Source: a bacterium | GTDB lineage: Bacteria; Armatimonadota; Chthonomonadetes; Chthonomonadales; Chthonomonadaceae | DNA length: 35,469 nucleotides | Assembly (NCBI GenBank): GCA_900299305.1 | Contig: OMJJ01000163.1 | Location: forward strand, 1 to 35,469 | Reading direction: 5' to 3' | Part shown: positions 3,147 to 17,762 of the stretch, in pieces | Layout: every line of letters begins with the position of its first letter | Position numbering within the stretch: position 1 is the stretch's first letter | The notes under the pieces: model-generated | Databases searched by the model: none | What the model was told of the DNA's origin: nothing | Seen by the model: the letters and a program-made list of their open reading frames with translations, nothing else | Position numbers and translations under genes: made by a program

Positions 3147-4714
3147 ATTTCCTCCTGTTGCGGGTGCTTGTGATAGAGCCTCCAGCCTATACTCCACAGC
3201 ACCCCATAGTAGAGTATTATCAACCAGACAGATGGAGGCGGTACATTCATGCCTCCTGCTCCCAACTCTCCCCAATAGCGTACCAGCACTAGCACAGTTT
3301 TCAACAGTGTTTTCAACATTTCAACAAAAGGGGCGGAAAGTAGAGGATAGATTGCCCCTAAAATAGAGGTCGTAAATCCGAGCGCCAAAATGGGAGTAAC
3401 AAGAGGAACCACCATCAGATTCGCGAGTACCGAGGTAAAAGAGACGTGGTAGAAGTAGGTTGCGATAAGCGGTAGAGTTCCTAGTTGTGCTACTAATGAG
3501 ACGACAAAACAGATTAGGAGGTAGTCTACCGCGCTTCGTGTTCCCCTCTGTAGGTATGTTTTTTGAGGGAGGCGTTCTTTTATCTTTTGTACCTGCTTTT
3601 GGCAGTAGGGCATAAACAGAACAAGCGTTATCACGGTAGCGTAAGAGAGTTGGAACCCGGCTTCCAGTAGCGAATTGGGGTTCAGAACCAACAGAATGAG
3701 GGCAGAGAAGGCGGTGGCGTTCCACCAGTCTGGTTCTCTCTCTACAATACGGGCAAACAGGTACACCCCTCCGATAACCACTGCCCGAACCACCGCAGGG
3801 CGACCTCCTGCCAAAAACGCATAGAGTACCAAAGAGGCTAAGGTGAGCAGAATCGCGTTTCGCCGTGAGATTCGGCAATGTTTGAAGAGAGCGAGTAAAA
3901 GCCCCGCCATAATCCCAACGTGTAGCCCCGCCGTTGCCAGAATATGAATCGTTCCTGTTCTCTCGAAGTCGTTACGCAACTCCCCTGAAATCCCGGTACG
4001 CTCACCAAAAAGAATCCCGTTCAGTATCCCTGCCAATTCAGGCGAGAGTCCCCTTTGGGCAGAGGCAAGCAACCGTTTTCGGAGGGCAAAAACCGCTTTC
4101 AGAAGAGGGTTGCCTTCTACTTCTTCGGGCAGTGCCTCCCACTGCTTAGAGGCTAGTACCGCAGTAACGCCTTGCGTATTTAGATAGTGCGCGTAGTCGA
4201 AACCGCCGGGATTTCTCTGCCCTTGCGGTAGTTCTAGTTCCCCAAAAAGCCTAACACGGGTTCCAAAGGTTGGGAGTGTCTGATTCGAGTCTCTCTTCAA
4301 AGTGAGATAGGTTTGGAGTGTACCTTCTGCGCTCTGAGCCTCCTCAAAAGCCTTTGTTTGAACCCCCTCCACTCCTACCTTAAATGCAAGCCTTACCCAC
4401 TTTTCTCTGCCTTTTAAGCCGGTTGATTCTACATCAGATACTAATACACTTGTCACACTTATTTTGGCAGGGGCAAAGCGTGATATGTCGTTTTGTGCGA
4501 TGTGATTCGCCATACCCACACGCCAAAAACCGAGCAAAACCGCTATCAAACAGAACGCCAATACCCCATATTGAGAGCGGCGGCGTAACGCAAACAGAAG
4601 AAGAGTGGGAACCAGAAGCACAAGCGGCAACAAAAACAGCACAGGGGCAAAACTGGCAAGCAGTATCCCTAAAACAAAAGAGAGAATGATACTGATAAGA
4701 GGACGTTGAGTCAT
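3143..4714 (-). CDS. comEC: ComEC/Rec2-type competence membrane protein lacking the metallo-beta-lactamase domain
   Basis: Encodes 523 residues from ATG 4714; AGGAGGG lies 8 nt upstream, and the stop of dciA is 17 bp before this start. The N-terminal third has two or three membrane helices (ISIILSFVLGILLASFAPVL) and a DUF4131-like soluble segment with an OB-fold style GTRVRLFGEL motif. From about residue 210 the Competence domain follows: GILNGILFGERTGI, TGTIHILATAGLHVGI, then many helices including GGRPAVVRAVVIGGVYLFAR. In known systems ComEC passes single-stranded DNA across the inner membrane. Typical ComEC proteins of 700-800 residues end in a metallo-beta-lactamase-like domain; this one stops after the membrane domain, so a separate nuclease would be needed. 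The 3' end carries paired TTTTCAACA nonamers (separate entry). Confidence 0.88.
   Translation of the reverse strand: MTQRPLISIILSFVLGILLASFAPVLFLLPLVLLVPTLLLFALRRRSQYGVLAFCLIAVLLGFWRVGMANHIAQNDISRFAPAKISVTSVLVSDVESTGLKGREKWVRLAFKVGVEGVQTKAFEEAQSAEGTLQTYLTLKRDSNQTLPTFGTRVRLFGELELPQGQRNPGGFDYAHYLNTQGVTAVLASKQWEALPEEVEGNPLLKAVFALRKRLLASAQRGLSPELAGILNGILFGERTGISGELRNDFERTGTIHILATAGLHVGIMAGLLLALFKHCRISRRNAILLTLASLVLYAFLAGGRPAVVRAVVIGGVYLFARIVEREPDWWNATAFSALILLVLNPNSLLEAGFQLSYATVITLVLFMPYCQKQVQKIKERLPQKTYLQRGTRSAVDYLLICFVVSLVAQLGTLPLIATYFYHVSFTSVLANLMVVPLVTPILALGFTTSILGAIYPLLSAPFVEMLKTLLKTVLVLVRYWGELGAGGMNVPPPSVWLIILYYGVLWSIGWRLYHKHPQQEEI
3298..3326. repeat. Three TTTTCAACA-type nonamers inside comEC
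   Basis: TTTTCAACA at 3298-3306 and 3310-3318 (12-bp phase), then ATTTCAACA at 3318-3326, in the 3' part of comEC. The first pair matches the paired nonamers of the candidate origin at 20 of 21 bases, differing only in the 3-bp spacer. On the coding strand they encode part of a repeated Leu-Lys-Thr segment, which partly explains the periodicity. Confidence 0.6.
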
Positions 4715-4730: not shown

Positions 4731-5471
4731 TTAACTACAGAGGCGGCAGATAGGGCAGAGACGATACTCGGTATTGTGGGCAGTATGACAGCGAGTGCAG
4801 ACCTTCCAGCCATGTGCGATTCGCCAATGACGCAGTTTTGCATCTAGCATAAGACGGTGGGCGATTTTTTCCCTAACGGCATCCTCTGGGATATAGATGA
4901 GTTCCTCTAGTTGGGTACGGAGTTCTCCTCTCTCGGAGGGGTCTAGCACTACGGTTTTCAACTCTTCGAGAGGCGGAGTATCGGGAATCACAACCACCTT
5001 CTCTTTTTTAAGTTTGCGTACCCGAAAGCGAATATCGGTGATACAGGCTTTTCCCAAAAAGCGATTGAGTTCGGCAAGAATACGCGGTTTGTAGAGGGTA
5101 AGCTCGTGAGACCAGACGGAACTCTTGGTGTTTACAAAGAGTACCCCACCGTTTACGCTGTCTGCCTCGGTTGCTTCCGCCGCCTGATTCCCTACCACGC
5201 GCTCCCAGTAGAGTACCGCAAGGTTCTCCTGTAACTTCTCCGAATCCTCATTGTTGTGTAGCGCACTAGACACGCTACGCATGGCTTGACTCAGCAGAGG
5301 AGAGAGAGGTCCTTTCCTCTCCTGAAAACGATACAGGAGACTCTCTTCTACCGCTTTTGCCTCTTTAGGGGGCGGATTCTGTGGATTCACTCCCGTTTTG
5401 CGGGGCGGGGTTCTCTTGTTTGTTAGCGGTTCGGCTATTGGGGGTTGTGGTTCGTGTTTTTCGTCGGACAT
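4731..5471 (-). CDS. dciA: DciA-type (DUF721) protein with C-terminal zinc ribbon
   Basis: Encodes 246 residues. Residues about 64-140 carry the DUF721/DciA core (VLYWERVVGNQAAEATEADS, then GGVLFVNTKSSVWSHELTLY and ILAELNRFLG). DciA loads or activates the replicative helicase DnaB in bacteria that lack DnaC or DnaI, and the gene is often next to recF, as here. The last 25 residues add a CxxC-x11-CxxCxxC module (CTRCHT...CPICRLC), a probable zinc ribbon that standard DciA proteins lack. The first 60 residues are Pro/Lys-rich and look disordered. The ATG at 5471 gives a 107-bp overlap with the 3' end of recF and has no strong Shine-Dalgarno, so the true start may lie further in, for example at Met64. 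A 17-bp gap separates its stop from comEC. Confidence 0.83.
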   Translation of the reverse strand: MSDEKHEPQPPIAEPLTNKRTPPRKTGVNPQNPPPKEAKAVEESLLYRFQERKGPLSPLLSQAMRSVSSALHNNEDSEKLQENLAVLYWERVVGNQAAEATEADSVNGGVLFVNTKSSVWSHELTLYKPRILAELNRFLGKACITDIRFRVRKLKKEKVVVIPDTPPLEELKTVVLDPSERGELRTQLEELIYIPEDAVREKIAHRLMLDAKLRHWRIAHGWKVCTRCHTAHNTEYRLCPICRLCS

Positions 5472-6735
5472 CGGGCGTTACCACTCCGTTCGCGACCTGA
5501 AAAGTGGTCGCCTCTGCCAGTATCTCTTTGGGAAACGGGCGCAAACTGGTGCAGGTAATGAACGTTTGGCAACGGCGGTGCACCCACTCTAGCAGGTGAG
5601 TACGTCTGTTATCGTCCAAATCGCTCATTACATCGTCGAGGAGCATCACAGGAGGCTCTCCAACATAGTCTTGAATCAGTTGAAATTCGGCAAGTTTGAG
5701 GGCAAGAGTCGCCGTTCTCTGCTGTCCCTGAGAGCCATAGAGCCGCGCTTCTGCCCCGTTTATGAAGAATCCGATGTCGTCGCGCTGAGGGCCCAAGAGC
5801 GTCGTGCCTCTACGCGCCTCCTCTAGCCCCATCTCCACCATCTGCCGCCGAAACGCTGTAGAGACCGCCTCCGTGCCATCTAGGGGCGATTCCGTGCGAG
5901 TCTGCGGGGCGGACTCGGTGGTAGGAATCACGGCTTGAATCTCACTCAGGTATTGCGTCTCTCTGTTTGTCTCACGAATCAGCGAGTTATTAACAACCTC
6001 TGTTGAAACTGTTGACAACTCAGGGGGTTCTGGGAGGCGAATACTAGGCATATAGCGAATTTCGAGGCTCTCCTTACCGTCCGTCAGTTCACGGTGTACC
6101 TGATTCGCCAACGGCGCAAGACGCGCAAGGTAGAATCGGCGTTTTTCGATGATGGGCGCACCGAAAGTTATCAACTGCTCGTTCCACACATCCAGCCCCA
6201 ACTCCTGCGGAGGGCGTGGGCGGTCTCGTAACTCTTTCAGGAGGCGGTTGCGCTGTGCGAGTACCCGTTTGTAGTGTCCCAAGTCGTACACATAGCGCGG
6301 ACTTATCTGCGAAATCTCCACATTGAGGTAGTGCCGCCGGTCTGCGGGTTCACCGGTGACAATCGCGAGGTCGATAGAGCCAAAAAAGACCGCGTTAAAC
6401 TGCCCCAGAATATCGACCACACGCCCCCGCTTACTCCCGTTTATCTTCACCTCTTTTTTGTCGGTCTGAAACACCGACACCTCTAAATCCCCCTCCCCCT
6501 GACACTCTCTGTCTACCTCCGCCGTAACATGAGCCACCTCCCCTTGGTTGCAAATAAGCTCCGACTCCCGACTGGCACGAAGCGAACGGGTGGTGGCTAA
6601 TAGCGACAGTGCTTCTAAAACATTGGTCTTGCCTTGTGCATTCTGCCCATAGAGGATATTTACCCCCTCACCGGGAGAGAGGTTTAGGGAAGGGTAGTTC
6701 CGAAACTGATTTAGTTTGAGTTGACGCACACGCAT
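5365..6735 (-). CDS. recF: RecF DNA repair/replication ATPase with a low-complexity insertion
   Basis: Encodes 456 residues from ATG 6735 (MRVRQLKLNQFRNYPSL is the classic RecF start). Walker A is GQNAQGKT (30-37), the ABC signature region is LYGSQGQQRT, and Walker B is VMLLDDVMSDLD. RecF acts with RecO and RecR to load RecA at single-strand gaps and sits in the dnaA-dnaN-recF cluster of many genomes. At 456 residues it is longer than the usual 360-380. The excess is a Thr/Glu/Ser-rich insertion of roughly 60 residues (about 265-325) between conserved blocks and a hydrophilic tail that overlaps dciA. The insertion's DNA contains a cluster of GANTC sites and origin-type boxes. No strong ribosome site precedes the start; a GGAG lies 12 nt away. 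Confidence 0.92.
   Translation of the reverse strand: MRVRQLKLNQFRNYPSLNLSPGEGVNILYGQNAQGKTNVLEALSLLATTRSLRASRESELICNQGEVAHVTAEVDRECQGEGDLEVSVFQTDKKEVKINGSKRGRVVDILGQFNAVFFGSIDLAIVTGEPADRRHYLNVEISQISPRYVYDLGHYKRVLAQRNRLLKELRDRPRPPQELGLDVWNEQLITFGAPIIEKRRFYLARLAPLANQVHRELTDGKESLEIRYMPSIRLPEPPELSTVSTEVVNNSLIRETNRETQYLSEIQAVIPTTESAPQTRTESPLDGTEAVSTAFRRQMVEMGLEEARRGTTLLGPQRDDIGFFINGAEARLYGSQGQQRTATLALKLAEFQLIQDYVGEPPVMLLDDVMSDLDDNRRTHLLEWVHRRCQTFITCTSLRPFPKEILAEATTFQVANGVVTPDVRRKTRTTTPNSRTANKQENPAPQNGSESTESAP
5888..6018. other. GANTC and nonamer-like cluster inside the recF insertion
   Basis: Six GANTC sites start at 5888, 5898, 5912, 5925, 5937 and 5976. They are followed by TTATTAACA (5987-5995), TGTTGAAAC (6001-6009) and TGTTGACAA (6010-6018). 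The same TTATTAACA occurs in the candidate origin at 7192. The cluster falls within the poorly conserved insertion of RecF, so the DNA could be under selection as a binding region as well as coding. Confidence 0.4.
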
Positions 6736-6840
6736 TGCGTTTTGCGACTCCGAAAGAGGAATAAAATCGCCCCAAAGTGAGGATGTATTAGCATAGCATG
6801 GAATCGTCAAAACCTAAACGTAAGAGAATCAGAATCAACC

Positions 6841-6880
6841 TATATTATATATTTAGATTCTAATGCTTATAATGCTTATT
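6841..6880. other. AT-rich block, candidate DNA unwinding element
   Basis: Forty bases that are almost all A/T, ending in a tandem direct repeat of AATGCTTAT (6862-6870 and 6871-6879). The block directly precedes the first TGTTGAAAA nonamer at 6882. An AT-rich repeat next to initiator boxes is the usual layout of a duplex unwinding element. Confidence 0.45.
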
Positions 6881-7055
6881 CTGTTGAAAAGACTCAAAAC
6901 TCTCCCGCTAGTAGACGCTTGAATCTTAGTTTGAATCGCGTTGAATCGAGACTCTAGCGGATTCTGATAGACTCTGATAGATGCTCACAACGCAAAAGAG
7001 TCTACCTATTTGGTGCTAATTAGGGGAAAAGTTTTCAACAATAGGGCAGAATCTC

Positions 7056-7076
7056 TGTTGAAAACTCTGTTGAAAA
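7056..7076. repeat. Paired nonamers, TGTTGAAAA-N3-TGTTGAAAA (copy 1)
   Basis: Two direct TGTTGAAAA nonamers with CTC between them, giving a 12-bp phase. The identical 21-bp unit recurs at 7269-7289, and a 20/21 match in the opposite orientation lies in comEC at 3298-3318. Nearby related sites are TTTTCAACA (7032-7040), TTTTCAACC (7085-7093) and CTTTCAACA (7095-7103). Confidence 0.7.
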
Positions 7077-7121
7077 CTGCCGAGTTTTCAACCACTTTCA
7101 ACAAGGGTTTTTGATTCAACC

Positions 7122-7181
7122 AAGTTTTGAGTCATAGGACTCAAAACTTTAGGGGGAGTTTTGAGTCATGGACTCAAAACT
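7122..7181. repeat. Twin perfect palindromes on GTTTTGAGTC/GACTCAAAAC
   Basis: The first dyad is AAGTTTTGAGTC (7122-7133), ATAG, GACTCAAAACTT (7138-7149). Seven bp later the second is AGTTTTGAGTC (7157-7167), ATG, GACTCAAAACT (7171-7181). Each carries two GANTC sites, starting 9 and 8 bp apart, at its centre. A lone half-site (GACTCAAAACT) lies at 6891-6901. Two near-identical 11-12 bp arms with no T-run fit protein binding better than termination. Confidence 0.65.
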
Positions 7182-7268
7182 TGGATATAAGTTATTAACA
7201 TAGTACAAGTTTAGGCGCTAAAACATAGTCTTTTTTGGTATAAAAATTGGTACTAGGGTAGTAAGAAT

Positions 7269-7308
7269 TGTTGAAAACTCTGTTGAAAACTCACTTTTTT
7301 GTTGAAAA
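7269..7308. repeat. Paired plus single TGTTGAAAA nonamers (copy 2)
   Basis: TGTTGAAAA at 7269-7277, 7281-7289 and 7300-7308, all in one orientation. The first two are separated by CTC exactly as in the pair at 7056. The cluster ends about 50 bp before the kinase stop codon. Confidence 0.7.
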
Positions 7309-7356
7309 CTTTAGACTCAATTCTCACCAAAAACTGATACAAAATAGGGGGTAGTT

Positions 7357-10266
7357 TTAGGAGTTGAGTGCCTCGCGAACGTGGCTCAAAAGCTCGGTTC
7401 GATTGAAAGGTTTGGGAAGAAATTTGGCTACATTCGCTACAATCTGTTTTTCCAATGCTTGGCTATCGGTATGCCCCGACATATAGAGGATTTTGATAGT
7501 GGGGTGAGTCTCCTTTACGTAGTTTGCTAGTTCCAATCCATTTGTTTGAGGCATAACCACATCGGTAAGCAGTAGGTGTATTGGCTCCGAAATCTGCTTT
7601 AAGAGCTGAATAGCCGTGCTTCCATTATCGGCAGAGAGAACACGGTAGCCATGTGCCTCTAGTGTTTGGCTAGCAATATCACGAACAAACGTTTCGTCTT
7701 CTGCGAGTAAGATGGTCTCCGTTCCCCTATAGTCTTTTTGGCTACTTTCTGTCTCTTTTTGGGGCAATGCTTCTTGAGTGGTAGGTAGATAGACAGTGAA
7801 GGTGGTTCCTACTCCCACTTTGCTTTCAAAGGAGATATGCCCCTGATGCTGTTGAACAATCCCGTAACAGGTAGATAGACCCAGCCCGGTTCCTTTGCCC
7901 TGAGATTTTGTGGTGAAGAAAGGCTCGAAAATATGTTGTCGGTTCGCTTCATCAATACCAGTACCGGTGTCGGACACTCGAATGACGAGATAGTTTCCGG
8001 GGGAAATATCAGGAAGAGAGTGATGGTTGTGAGTGATATTACTTGTCTCAATGGTGAGAGTTCCACCCTGCGGCATGGCATCTTTTGCATTGATAGCGAG
8101 GTTTAGAATCACCTGCTGTATTTGGGTAGGGTCGGTGCGAATAGTAGAGATTACGGCTCTATTTTGGAATACAAATGTTGTACTATCTCCGAGTATTGGA
8201 GTGATAATCTCCATTGTTTCTTCAATAACAGAGTCTACATCAACAACCTTTGGTGCAACGATTTTGCGGCGGGCAAAGGTAAGGAGTTGGGAGGTAAGTT
8301 TTGCGGCGCGTTCGCTACTTACTCGGATATTACTTAGGTAGCGCGTGAGAGAAGTATCGGGTGGTGCGACCATCTCTGCCATCTCTACATAGCCCAAAAT
8401 AGCGGTGAGAATGTTATTGAAGTCGTGGGCGATACCCCCTGCTATGCGCCCAATACCCTGCATCTTTTGCGCCTGTAGCACCTGTTGCTCTAGCTCTTTT
8501 TGATGGGTAATATCTACGGCAATCCCTATAACTCGATAGAGTGTCCCCGCCGCGTTGGTAATGGGATAGGCACGGTGATGAAGCCAACGTATCTCTCCGT
8601 TAGGGCGGATAATTCGATAAACGGTATCCGTCTCCTCTCCGGCGAGCTCCCGTTGCTGTCTTTCCATGATTTGCGGTATGTCTTCCGGGTGAATCGCTTG
8701 TAGATAGAGAAGAGGGTCTTCATAGAGTGCCTCTCTAGGAATCCCCCATACTTCCGAGTAGGAAGGGCTAACATAGAGGAGCTTAAACTGAAAAACATCA
8801 AAGACCCAAAATATCTCACGTACATTCTCCGCCATCTGCCGAAAACGCTCTTCGCTCTCTCTTAGGGCAATTTCGGCACTCTTGCGCTCGGTAATGTCTT
8901 GAAGTATTCCCAAACATCCCCAAACCTCTCCCTGCTCATCTTTTAAGGAGACAGAGTTATCCGCAAAGTAGCGCAGTTTGCCGCTTTTGGTAATATACGA
9001 CTCGTCGGATTGCCACATCTCTACTTTCCCAGAGCGAAAGAGTTGACTTGCCTCTAGGGTGGTGAGTCCCTTCATCTCTCCTTGAATTTCAGGGGCAAAA
9101 GAGAGACTTGCAAGGAGTTGGGGAGTGACCTCTTCTGCGTGATAGCCCAGTAACTCACCGATATTCGCATCCATAAAGGTATACGCTTCCTTACGGAAAT
9201 CGTACTGATAGACGATACTGCCCATGGTGCGTATGGCTTTACGATAAAGTTCCTCACGATTCTTAATCTCCATCTCTGCTACTTTTTGAGCGGTTATGTC
9301 GGTATAACAGGTAACAGCGGCGTAGGGGCTACTCTCCCCTGCCAAAAAAATAGGTTCTGCTCCCATAGAGACCCAAGTTACTTCGCCGTTAGGGTGTACA
9401 ATCTGTTGGATGACATCACGTTGCGCCTCACCAGTCTCTAAGCAGACACGACTGGGGAGTTGGGTAATTGGGAAGGGGGCTCCGTATTGGTTACAGACAC
9501 GATAACCGGGAGGATACTGCCGTGACTCGAACTCCTCTTGGGTAAGGCGAAGGATTCTTTTTAGGCTCTCATTCATAAAGAGAACCTTGTCTTCCTTAGT
9601 GCGTAGTGATATACCATCGCGAGCAACAGAGAACATTCTATGAAATAGGGTTGCCTGTTCTGCTTGTGCCTCTTGGATACGCAACTGGGTGACGAGGTGT
9701 GCCAATGAGAGGGCATAGAGGCGTGCTTTTTCTTGGATAAAGAGGGTAATAGGGTTTCTTGAGAGGAGATTATCCATAGAGAGATAGCCGATAACCGCCT
9801 CCCCATTCCAAAGAGAAACGCACAGGTGCTCTCCTTGCCCAACCTCAGTACGAGTGTCATCGAGCAAGGGCATTTTTGTAGAGTAGAGGCTACTCTCTTT
9901 GTGTAGGCGTTGAAAAATGAAGTTATCTGAAGATAGCGTGTGTACCTGAGAACGTTCGTCGCGTAGGTCTCCTTGCTCATCTACCCCATAAGAGCCTTGT
10001 ATTTTAGTATAGTTCTCTATGGCGAACCAGATACTAAAGCGGTCAAAACCCAAGCGTTCACGCCCCAACTCTACGGCGCGTTTGCACAGGTCATCGAACG
10101 TACTGGCTTGAGATAACTCGCGTTCAATGGTGTGCAGGTCGCGTTGGAACTGATGGATTCCTTTCAGGAGAGCTTCCTGTTCGGCAACCTGCTGTTCTAG
10201 CTCCTGCTGACGTGTTCGCAGTTGTGCGATTTCGGTGTCTGGTGATGTAGGTTGGGTGTCACGCAT
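7357..10266 (-). CDS. Soluble hybrid histidine kinase: coiled coil-GAF-3 PAS-HisKA-HATPase-receiver
   Basis: Encodes 969 residues with no membrane helix, so it is a cytoplasmic sensor. Order: N-terminal coiled coil (10-45), GAF-like domain (about 50-205), three PAS/PAC units (about 210-335, 340-465 and 475-600, each ending in a DIT-type PAC motif such as GIAVDITHQ), then HisKA with the phospho-acceptor His in GGIAHDFNNILTAI. The ATPase domain has the N box NLAINAKDAM, G1 VSDTGTGID, F box FEPFFTTK and G2 GKGTGLGLS. A C-terminal receiver (about 851-969) has its Asp in LLTDVVMPQ and Lys in FLPKPF. It autophosphorylates and passes the phosphate to its own receiver. No DNA-binding partner lies next to it, so output must go through a distant protein. 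ATG 10266 has only a weak ribosome site. The gene is read toward the candidate origin. Confidence 0.93.
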   Translation of the reverse strand: MRDTQPTSPDTEIAQLRTRQQELEQQVAEQEALLKGIHQFQRDLHTIERELSQASTFDDLCKRAVELGRERLGFDRFSIWFAIENYTKIQGSYGVDEQGDLRDERSQVHTLSSDNFIFQRLHKESSLYSTKMPLLDDTRTEVGQGEHLCVSLWNGEAVIGYLSMDNLLSRNPITLFIQEKARLYALSLAHLVTQLRIQEAQAEQATLFHRMFSVARDGISLRTKEDKVLFMNESLKRILRLTQEEFESRQYPPGYRVCNQYGAPFPITQLPSRVCLETGEAQRDVIQQIVHPNGEVTWVSMGAEPIFLAGESSPYAAVTCYTDITAQKVAEMEIKNREELYRKAIRTMGSIVYQYDFRKEAYTFMDANIGELLGYHAEEVTPQLLASLSFAPEIQGEMKGLTTLEASQLFRSGKVEMWQSDESYITKSGKLRYFADNSVSLKDEQGEVWGCLGILQDITERKSAEIALRESEERFRQMAENVREIFWVFDVFQFKLLYVSPSYSEVWGIPREALYEDPLLYLQAIHPEDIPQIMERQQRELAGEETDTVYRIIRPNGEIRWLHHRAYPITNAAGTLYRVIGIAVDITHQKELEQQVLQAQKMQGIGRIAGGIAHDFNNILTAILGYVEMAEMVAPPDTSLTRYLSNIRVSSERAAKLTSQLLTFARRKIVAPKVVDVDSVIEETMEIITPILGDSTTFVFQNRAVISTIRTDPTQIQQVILNLAINAKDAMPQGGTLTIETSNITHNHHSLPDISPGNYLVIRVSDTGTGIDEANRQHIFEPFFTTKSQGKGTGLGLSTCYGIVQQHQGHISFESKVGVGTTFTVYLPTTQEALPQKETESSQKDYRGTETILLAEDETFVRDIASQTLEAHGYRVLSADNGSTAIQLLKQISEPIHLLLTDVVMPQTNGLELANYVKETHPTIKILYMSGHTDSQALEKQIVANVAKFLPKPFNRTELLSHVREALNS

Positions 10267-15530: not shown

Positions 15531-15665
15531 ATGAAGCGAACCTATCAGCCTCATAATAGGCGGCACAAACGGGTTCATGGTTTCCGTAAACGCATGAGTA
15601 CCCACGATGGACGCAATGTCCTCAAGCGTCGGCGTTTACGCGGTCGCCACGAACTGATTAAATAG
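15531..15665 (+). CDS. rpmH: 50S ribosomal protein L34
   Basis: Encodes 44 very basic residues: [20 protein letters not shown], then [20 protein letters not shown], ending ELIK. This is the complete L34 consensus (KRTYQP start and the GRxVLxxRRxxGR core). L34 is a late-assembling protein of the large subunit. GAGGAG lies 13 nt before the ATG, a little far. In many bacteria rpmH is next to dnaA and the origin; here it heads rnpA-yidD-yidC, but dnaA is not beside it. Confidence 0.97.
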
Positions 15666-15764: not shown

Positions 15765-16142
15765 ATGTTACCCTCGGAACAACGCTTGCGCGACAACCGC
15801 GATTTCCGCCGAATCTACGCACAGGGACGCTCCTACCCTTGCGAACTCTGTGTGCTGTATGTATGGCGCAGAAACGGCTCCGCAAAAGAAGAGGCGCAGG
15901 GACGGCGTATTGGATTTGTGGTGAGCAAAAAGCAGGGCAAAGCGGTACAACGCAACCGCATGAAACGCAGACTACGCGAAGTCATTCGCCTCCTCCTGCC
16001 CCAACTGCGCGAAGGAACCTACGACCTCATCTTTCTCTGCCGAAAAGGGCTAGGAACCGCAAAGGGAGACAAGATACTGTCGGCGGTGTTACCACTCCTT
16101 ACAAAAGCCAACCTGCTAAACGACGAGAAAAGAGTGCCGTAG
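15765..16142 (+). CDS. rnpA: Ribonuclease P protein component
   Basis: Encodes 125 residues. The family signature is clear: LRDNRDFRRIYAQGRSY at the N-terminus, RIGFVVSKKQGKAVQRNRMK followed by RRLREVIR in the middle, and a YDLIFLCRKG strand. RnpA binds the catalytic RNase P RNA and helps it cleave 5' leaders from pre-tRNAs. The ATG has no strong Shine-Dalgarno, and two hairpins lie in the 99-bp gap after rpmH, suggesting low, structured translation. Its stop is 21 bp before yidD. Confidence 0.95.
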   Translation: MLPSEQRLRDNRDFRRIYAQGRSYPCELCVLYVWRRNGSAKEEAQGRRIGFVVSKKQGKAVQRNRMKRRLREVIRLLLPQLREGTYDLIFLCRKGLGTAKGDKILSAVLPLLTKANLLNDEKRVP

Positions 16143-16457: not shown

Positions 16458-17762
16458 TTGAAGGTATCAAAAATTCACCTGCTCCTACTTGCCCTACTTC
16501 TGTTGTGGGCTTCCCTCAGCGGATGCGCCATGCAACGCTACGCCGTAGCCCCCGACCCCAAGCCCCGCCTCGACCACGCCAAAGCACTCGAAACCCAGTC
16601 GCCCGTCAACGCACTGGAAGAGTATATGAAAATCGCGAAAGAGTACGGAAGCGGCGACGCGAAGTCGGCAGAAGAGACCAAGAAGTTTCGTGAAATCGCA
16701 GGAGACGCACTCTCCCGTGCTGTTACCTTCGGCTATACCACCATAGACCCCAAACGACTCAACGACCCCACCCTCAGCGACCTCGCACGCAAAGAGTTGG
16801 AAGCCCTTCAGTTCCAGGCGGGAGACAAGGCACTCATGGCGGCACGAGACCTTGTGTATCAGTACGGAGATACCCAAGCCTCTATGCGTGCCAACGAATC
16901 CAAGTATGGAGACGGAGAGCAACTTCCCCTCAAGGTCGCGCTAGAGCGGCGTATCGACTCCCGTAACTCACGTATCTACAACTACAAAATCATCGACTCG
17001 ATGATAAAACTAACCGGTTCCAACCCCTACTTTAGCTACTGGTTTGCCCTGCTCTGCGTTGCGGTTATCGCCAAAGGGGTTACTCTGCCACTCACCCTCA
17101 AGTCTACCAAAAGCCAAAGAGAGATGGCGAAAATCCAACCCCTTATCAAGAAACTGCAAGACGAGTATAAGGACGACAAAGCCACCCTCAACACAAAGAT
17201 GATGGAGGTCTACAAAGAGCATAACATCAACCCCCTCGCGGGATGCTTCCCCATGCTCATTCAGTTGCCCTTCTTTATCTGGGTCTATACCTCCATTCGC
17301 TACTACGAGTTCCACTTCGCACACGGCTACTTCTTCTGGATACACCCCTCTATTGGCGGACACTTCAAAGGAATGTTGGGCGGAAACCTGAGCGAGTTCG
17401 ATATTATTCTCACGCTTATCTACGCCGCCAGTAATATCGTCACCATGCGGATGACTCCTTCCCCCGACCCCCAACAGGCGCAACAGCAGAAACAGATGTC
17501 GGTGATGATGACCCTGATGATGCTCTATATGTTCCTCATCTACAAATGGTCTTCTGCCTTTACCCTGTACTGGATTATGACCAACGTGATAGGGGCATGG
17601 CAGTCCTACGTCTACATCTACAAGCCCAACCGCCTAGAGGCAGAGGCGAAAGCCGCAAACGAAAAGGTAGTAGAGGTGAAAGCAAAGCCCGTTACCAGTC
17701 CTAGCTCAGACGGAAATCCTCCCGTCCGCAAAATGACCAACCGTAACAAAAAGAAACGCTGA
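16458..17762 (+). CDS. yidC: YidC/Oxa1 membrane insertase with lipoprotein signal and helical N-terminal domain
   Basis: Encodes 434 residues from TTG 16458, with GAGGA upstream. A lipoprotein signal is visible (LLLLWASLSGC, Cys23). The C-terminal half is a normal YidC core: SYWFALLCVAVIAKGVTLPL, then KIQPLIKKLQDEYKDD, NPLAGCFPMLIQLPFFIWVY, and two later helices before a Lys-rich tail. The conserved Arg in the hydrophilic groove (E. coli Arg366) appears as Lys206. Residues about 26-185 are predicted helical and TPR-like, unlike the beta-rich periplasmic domain of Gram-negative YidC. YidC inserts proteins into the inner membrane alone or with SecYEG. The gene ends in an intrinsic terminator. 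Confidence 0.94.
   Translation: MKVSKIHLLLLALLLLWASLSGCAMQRYAVAPDPKPRLDHAKALETQSPVNALEEYMKIAKEYGSGDAKSAEETKKFREIAGDALSRAVTFGYTTIDPKRLNDPTLSDLARKELEALQFQAGDKALMAARDLVYQYGDTQASMRANESKYGDGEQLPLKVALERRIDSRNSRIYNYKIIDSMIKLTGSNPYFSYWFALLCVAVIAKGVTLPLTLKSTKSQREMAKIQPLIKKLQDEYKDDKATLNTKMMEVYKEHNINPLAGCFPMLIQLPFFIWVYTSIRYYEFHFAHGYFFWIHPSIGGHFKGMLGGNLSEFDIILTLIYAASNIVTMRMTPSPDPQQAQQQKQMSVMMTLMMLYMFLIYKWSSAFTLYWIMTNVIGAWQSYVYIYKPNRLEAEAKAANEKVVEVKAKPVTSPSSDGNPPVRKMTNRNKKKR

Follow-up and report, generated by a model that had tools for sequence, protein, structure and literature searches.

The intergenic region at 6736–7356 of the window (the whole stretch of 35,469 nucleotides analysed here) is almost certainly, judging from its sequence, the chromosomal origin of replication, oriC, and it carries 19 GANTC sites in 518 bp. 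The same genome encodes an orthologue of the methylase CcrM, and further GANTC arrays lie upstream of ccrM and dnaA. Taken together, these data are probably best explained by a circuit in which CcrM-methylated GANTC would gate oriC and feed back on ccrM and dnaA.

Methylation-timed replication is textbook knowledge for Dam/SeqA and CcrM in Proteobacteria. The present results suggest that a methylation-timed cell-cycle circuit is used independently outside this group. A little-studied phylum turns out to combine a CcrM orthologue, GANTC at a chromosomal origin, and phased arrays at ccrM and dnaA, and it becomes possible to test how many times methylation gating of initiation arose. The circuit predicts a GANTC-reading protein, which a comparison of array-bearing and array-less members of the family could bring to light. 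In addition, the order dnaA–GANTC cluster–recF can serve as a sequence marker to locate origins in such genomes.

The GANTC Cluster

The region and its neighbours are laid out as follows (strand in brackets where one applies).

4731–5471 (−): dciA, helicase-loading factor (PF05258, 2.1e-17)
5365–6735 (−): recF, with 14 GANTC (TIGR00611, 1.5e-97)
6736–7356: predicted oriC, intergenic, flanked by recF and the histidine kinase gene, 64% AT (GANTC, predicted DnaA boxes, synteny, relatives' skew)
6801–7318: 19 GANTC sites (count; alignment of four species)
6838–6880: AT-rich stretch, 81% AT, TAATGCTTATAATGCTTAT repeat, GANTC on both sides; candidate unwinding element
6882–6895 (−): predicted DnaA box TTTTCAACA abutting GANTC (6891–6895); abutment kept in 4/4 aligned species
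6921–6974: helically phased GANTC array with steps of 12, 10, 7, 10 and 10 (spacing count)
7032–7103: predicted DnaA-box cluster 1, TTTTCAACA at 7032–7040 (+), 7056–7064 (−) and 7068–7076 (−); one-mismatch boxes at 7085–7093 and 7095–7103
7122–7149: palindrome AAGTTTTGAGTC-N4-GACTCAAAACTT
7157–7181: palindrome AGTTTTGAGTC-N3-GACTCAAAACT
7269–7308 (−): predicted DnaA-box cluster 2, three TTTTCAACA (7269–7277, 7281–7289, 7300–7308)
7357–10266 (−): PAS hybrid histidine kinase, at the place of dnaA in relatives (profile matches, synteny)
15531–15665 (+): rpmH (ribosomal protein L34), typical origin neighbour (translation)
15765–16142 (+): rnpA (PF00825, 9.3e-28)
16458–17762 (+): yidC (PF02096, 4.9e-41)

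An earlier sequence-only reading had reported 19 GANTC sites between 6801 and 7318, which proved exact on a direct recount; 20 lie in 6736–7356. Its chance expectation of about two agrees with 2000 dinucleotide shuffles of 6801–7318, which contain 2.1 GANTC on average and 9 at most, while its "about twelve" sites for the histidine kinase gene have to be corrected slightly, to 11. The AT-rich repeat, the TTTTCAACA arrays (seven exact copies) and the twin palindromes that it described are all present, the latter being of the GAGTC-N3/4-GACTC type, and NCBIfam and Pfam agree with its naming of the adjoining recF and dciA. Among all 16 patterns of the form XYNY'X', GANTC shows the highest enrichment in 6801–7318 (19 vs. 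2.2).

The background was taken from the window's own genome (4.47 Mb in 404 contigs, 95% complete), labelled G000, with G020–G054 denoting the other genomes compared. In the 372 kb sampled, the mean is 1.34 GANTC per 518 bp, and the Poisson chance of finding 19 at this rate is about 5e-12 over all 518-bp segments of the genome. The next non-overlapping segment of this sample, within recF, holds 11 sites, and elsewhere the count is at most 8. The remaining intergenic DNA (75 stretches, 16.4 kb) averages 1.17 per 518 bp, so the concern that most intergenic DNA might be equally dense falls away. The recF coding sequence is itself enriched in GANTC; the same is seen in G040, G041 and G052 and is not seen in the cluster-less relatives. 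The nearest named relatives of RecF come from an uncultured Chthonomonas (85%) and an Armatimonadetes MAG (83%), followed by a MAG labelled Chthonomonas calidirosea (75%) and a Chthonomonadaceae MAG (68%); the host therefore belongs to the Chthonomonadaceae of the Armatimonadota.

The Chromosomal Origin

The region has the features of a DnaA-type oriC, to which DnaA would bind and which it would unwind. Of the 26 copies of the predicted DnaA box TTTTCAACA in the genome, seven are crowded into about 430 bp here (chance ~1e-22), and relatives carry TTATCAACA, TTTTCAACA or TTATTAACA boxes at corresponding places. The canonical DnaA box is TTATCCACA, to which the TTATCAACA and TTATTAACA boxes of the relatives are closer. 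The order dnaA–GANTC cluster–recF is found in G041, G046, G042 and G052 (in G043 it is split by a contig end) and also in a second family, f9 (G021, G022, G023, G024 and G025). In the window's species, dnaA is located on contig C102 and the hybrid histidine kinase gene holds its place beside the cluster. A dnaA-linked origin elsewhere would have spoken against the region, but contig C102 is without any TTTTCAACA box, and an origin beside the displaced dnaA was thus rejected.

Skew in two complete genomes points to the same locus. In G044, of the same family, the GC-skew minimum (2,294,434) and the keto minimum (2,290,993) fall at recF (2,290,243–2,291,469), although this genome is without a GANTC cluster there. 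The 400 kb read from G021 (family f9) place both minima at 1,598,631, and a cluster of 36 GANTC sites (1,599,403–1,600,218), in the recF–dnaA gap, is less than 1 kb away; on coarse sampling, the genome-wide skew of G021 is weak, with its minimum in the same part, about 1.6–1.8 Mb. In the window, recF adjoins the cluster and rpmH–rnpA–yidC lies about 8–9 kb away. The candidate origin of the sequence-only reading is thus borne out by box concentration, synteny, skew minima and neighbouring genes alike.

Boxes of the form TTWTYAACA were not found in the f9 origins of G021 and G024, the two examined; hence the DnaA box may differ in this family, or the GANTC repeats may serve another initiator-related role. 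The origin intergenic DNA of f9 (G021–G025) contains TGTGACTC repeats at 10–11 bp.

Several observations concern the surroundings. The DnaA ATPase domain of G044 is broken up between two reading frames (C1:1352441-1352925), by a frameshift or a sequencing error, and 0.94 Mb separate its dnaA from the skew minimum. G021 has two more clusters with 17 GANTC per 518 bp (C1:1,517,801 and 1,540,501), 60–80 kb from the origin; they are largely in ORFs and could possibly be titration or sequestration sites. At 3298–3326 of the window, about 3.5 kb from oriC in the comEC/carbon-nitrogen hydrolase region, there are three TTTTCAACA-like boxes, two of them exact and 12 bp apart. Sigma-70 promoter scans of oriC and the region upstream of ccrM returned no match. 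The histidine kinase (7357–10266) gives no evidence of membership in the proposed circuit; its identification as CckA was rejected, since its scores fall far short of both CckA cut-offs and mark it only as a hybrid kinase of generic type.

The CcrM Methylase

The sequence-only reading had suggested a search for a CcrM-like GANTC methyltransferase, and one was found on contig C311. The 384-aa protein matches Caulobacter CcrM over its full length (PDB 6pbd, E = 1e-138, 58% identity) and has the domains N6_N4_Mtase (PF01555) and RAMA (PF18755), i.e., it is a beta-class N6-adenine methyltransferase with the CcrM C-terminal domain. Its score against the NCBIfam CcrM equivalog is 544 bits, below the cut-off of 830 bits. 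Residues responsible for GANTC base contacts, target-adenine positioning and phosphate binding were checked from PMC6787082: the equivalents of R44, M122, P123, Y93, H94, R129, I110, F125, T191 and K193 are identical, and only F63, K126 and R268 differ among those checked. On these grounds, CcrM very probably targets GANTC in the window's organism. On its 4.4-kb contig, ccrM is flanked by genes for a PhyH dioxygenase and an M61 peptidase, and therefore no restriction partner is located beside it there.

Orthologues of ccrM are present in 28 of the 31 genomes of the order and also in other families of the phylum. The idea of GANTC as a CcrM target outside Proteobacteria, put forward in the sequence-only reading, is thus backed by a full-length orthologue here and in nearly the whole order. 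In the CcrM tree, the window's family (f1) forms one clade (99/99) and Alphaproteobacteria form a separate one (99/99), so the gene is neither a contaminant nor recently transferred; an alphaproteobacterial ccrM contig contaminating the MAG is ruled out by the orthologues across the order and the separate clade. A search of viral contigs revealed no close CcrM relatives, and one of a phage collection gave partial matches only, except for one record. In a published survey, close CcrM homologues outside Alphaproteobacteria were found only in "sporadic species and clades" (PMC3973325).

Phased Arrays Upstream of ccrM and dnaA

Upstream of ccrM there are six GANTC at exact 10-bp steps in the window's genome, G039, G040 and G041, and arrays that come close to this spacing in G046, G043, G042 and G052; about 1e-9 six-site, 10-bp runs are expected per genome. 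In the sample of intergenic DNA, which deliberately took in the ccrM and dnaA contigs, the densest GANTC stretches are the ccrM upstream region (7 in 204 bp) and oriC, and the dnaA upstream region is the fourth densest (5 in 221 bp). GANTC upstream of dnaA recurs in G039. The whole genome contains 10 triply phased GANTC against about 2 expected; ccrM accounts for four of them, oriC for two and dnaA for one. Of 50 sites in the ccrM arrays, 48 have A or C at the centre and 44 are followed by A (GAMTCA).

A comparable ccrM array is missing in G047, G048, G049 and G051; the comparison left out G044. G047, G048 and G051 are also without an ori cluster at dnaA/recF, and in G049 recF was not found. 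In general, genomes with an ori cluster tend to carry the ccrM array as well. In a phylum-wide count of phased triples, the ccrM-negative family f15 also exceeds the reversed control CTNAG, which is a poor control because it is itself biased in bacterial genomes (PMC3973325).

Two further observations can be added. In two species of the genus, on C102 of the window's genome and on G039 C617, the dnaA gene adjoins a SAM-methyltransferase gene, and both have GANTC upstream of dnaA. On C400 of the window's genome, an ORF (1080–2552) of the Pup ligase/Dop family (PF03136, 7e-134) is preceded by three GANTC spaced exactly 10 bp apart (945–969) and is possibly a further target of the circuit; chance alone would give about two such triples.

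Conservation and Distribution of the Cluster

Comparison with related genomes, as the sequence-only reading had recommended, shows the cluster kept at the orthologous position in several of them. In an alignment of the window's species with G040, G041 and G046, whose regions are 54–78% identical, 12 of the 20 GANTC sites share alignment columns, as against 14% of the sites of other frequent gapped tetranucleotide patterns. Conservation of the GANTC letters exceeds that of the other positions in the region (Fisher 1.4e-9), and the step pattern 10-10-7-10-12-30 recurs in relatives despite diverged spacers.

Clusters of at least 12 GANTC per 518 bp are present in eight genomes of the window's family (the own genome, G040, G041, G042, G043, G045, G046 and G052) and in six of family f9 (G020–G025). 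At dnaA loci, such a cluster is found in 11 of 35 ccrM-positive genomes vs. 0 of 21 ccrM-negative ones (Fisher p = 0.004, uncorrected for phylogeny); the 35 include G022, whose assembly (69% complete) gave no ccrM match. A rank test over all dnaA loci is not significant (p = 0.32). Most ccrM-positive genomes are without an ori cluster, among them, at dnaA/recF, the same-family genomes G044, G047, G048, G050 and G051; CcrM alone hence does not predict the cluster.

Proposed Mechanism and Alternatives

The proposed mechanism builds on what can be read from the DNA and its relatives, namely the identity of the origin, the arrays and their conservation, and the orthology and base-contact residues of CcrM; from these we infer that the sites are methylated, that a reader exists and which way the effect runs. 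DnaA would bind the TTTTCAACA boxes and open the AT-rich stretch at 6838–6880, and the apparently orphan CcrM would methylate GANTC. Passage of the fork would leave the 19 clustered sites hemimethylated together, a state that may be read either by a protein binding the phased GANTC or by DnaA at the box that abuts GANTC. Re-initiation would then be delayed until CcrM restores full methylation. The arrays upstream of ccrM (six sites at 10-bp pitch) and dnaA (five in 221 bp) would couple the synthesis of the enzyme and the initiator to fork passage. Control of initiation and/or of ccrM/dnaA through the cluster's methylation state is considered likely.

The known readers were searched for in 17 genomes. 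SeqA (PF03925) is absent, the same search finding it in the E. coli control; GcrA gives no match above the cut-off and two weak partial ones, with a positive Caulobacter control. Both were accordingly rejected as the reader. That the pitch of one turn is kept across genera suggests that a single face of the helix is occupied by a protein, and for both reasons a dedicated reader that senses the methylation state is proposed. A bolder form of the proposal, to which we give slightly less than an even chance, is an independent CcrM-based cell-cycle oscillator in Armatimonadota. Here, a new reader unrelated to SeqA and GcrA might act on phased arrays at oriC and at the ccrM and dnaA promoters, so that the origin might be sequestered and the synthesis of methylase and initiator timed.

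The main rival, which we consider unlikely, supposes a regulator of transcription or initiation that recognises GACTCA-like half-sites in the phased arrays and palindromes regardless of methylation, so that methylation of GANTC would be incidental. Such a plain factor would give ccrM arrays fixed in orientation and flank (GAMTCA), and it fits the GACTCAAAACT half-sites of the palindromes, the TGTGACTC repeats of the f9 arrays and the missing arrays in many ccrM-positive genomes. At oriC, however, the centre base and flanks vary (GAATC, GATTC, GACTC, GAGTC) while G-A-T-C is kept, and the flanks differ between families whereas GANTC is common to them. The lack of a cluster in all 21 ccrM-negative genomes also argues against it, as does the fact that the gene of the GANTC methylase itself is among the main targets.

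Less likely still is that methylation at the origin acts on DNA mechanics (duplex stability, access to DnaA boxes) or repair without any dedicated reader, the promoter arrays being a separate autoregulation of ccrM. The 10-bp helical phasing, with steps kept while spacers diverge, points instead to a bound protein, and the ori cluster and the ccrM array co-occur in the same genomes, even though GANTC abuts a DnaA box beside the AT-rich stretch in four species and neither SeqA nor a GcrA match above the cut-off was found, as mechanics alone would have it. That the cluster arose as an artefact of composition or repeat expansion, or is what remains of a mobile element, and is unlinked to replication, has a negligible probability: short internal repeats are present, but position and spacing are conserved across genera at 54–78% identity, skew minima accompany the locus, and GANTC is enriched above every other pattern of the same form.

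Comparison with Known Systems

In E. coli, GATC sites are crowded in oriC and the dnaA promoter and serve sequestration by Dam/SeqA. The armatimonadotal arrangement is alike in that methylation sites are crowded in oriC and upstream of dnaA. It differs in using GANTC and CcrM, not GATC and Dam, in the absence of SeqA, and in the array that ccrM itself carries; sequestration is here a proposal.

A literature search gave no paper joining GANTC with Armatimonadetes or CcrM with Armatimonadota. Motif clusters of methyltransferases at origins as such are already known: the parts of Blow et al. (2016, PMC4752239) considered here describe clusters of orphan-methyltransferase motifs at origins, TTAA in Arthrobacter, CTCGAG in Nocardia and CTAG in Haloarchaea. 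To the extent of the same parts, those systems resemble the present one in a conserved methylase, apparently orphan here, and dense motif clusters in non-coding origin DNA, and the bacterial cases also in a cluster by dnaA. There the cluster is tied to the presence of the methylase, a tie that may hold here too. The combination by which these authors judge such systems, a conserved methyltransferase with a conserved cluster at orthologous non-coding origin positions, is found here. The enzyme is CcrM, unlike the other motifs and phyla treated in those parts, which describe neither methylase-promoter arrays nor helical phasing, both present here. What is new is therefore narrower than the sequence-only reading had supposed: GANTC and CcrM at a DnaA-type origin stand, while orphan-methyltransferase clusters were known in three other lineages (PMC4752239) and GANTC-rich repABC origins had been described (PMC6090056). 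New is the combination of a CcrM orthologue outside Proteobacteria with a DnaA-type chromosomal origin and with phased arrays at the genes of both methylase and initiator.

In Caulobacter, CcrM remethylates GANTC late in the cell cycle, and the methylation affects transcription of ctrA, dnaA, ftsZ, mipZ and probably ccrM (PMC3973325). The alphaproteobacterial CcrM/GcrA/CtrA circuit (PMC3973325, PMC3667746) shares with the present case an orthologous CcrM and GANTC in the control regions of dnaA and ccrM (for ccrM, probably, in Alphaproteobacteria). Unlike it, the armatimonadotal case has no GcrA match above the cut-off, multi-site arrays phased at 10 bp and a massive cluster at a DnaA-type origin.

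The repABC origins of Alphaproteobacteria have been described as GANTC-rich (PMC6090056), and the Agrobacterium ori2 over-initiates on CcrM overexpression, for which SeqA-like gating by GANTC was proposed (PMC11514494). GANTC inside an origin is common to these systems and the one reported here (PMC6090056, PMC11514494). Agrobacterium ori2, however, belongs to a RepC-dependent secondary replicon with three sites in the putative ori2, whereas 12–36 sites are found here at an origin of the DnaA-type chromosomal kind.
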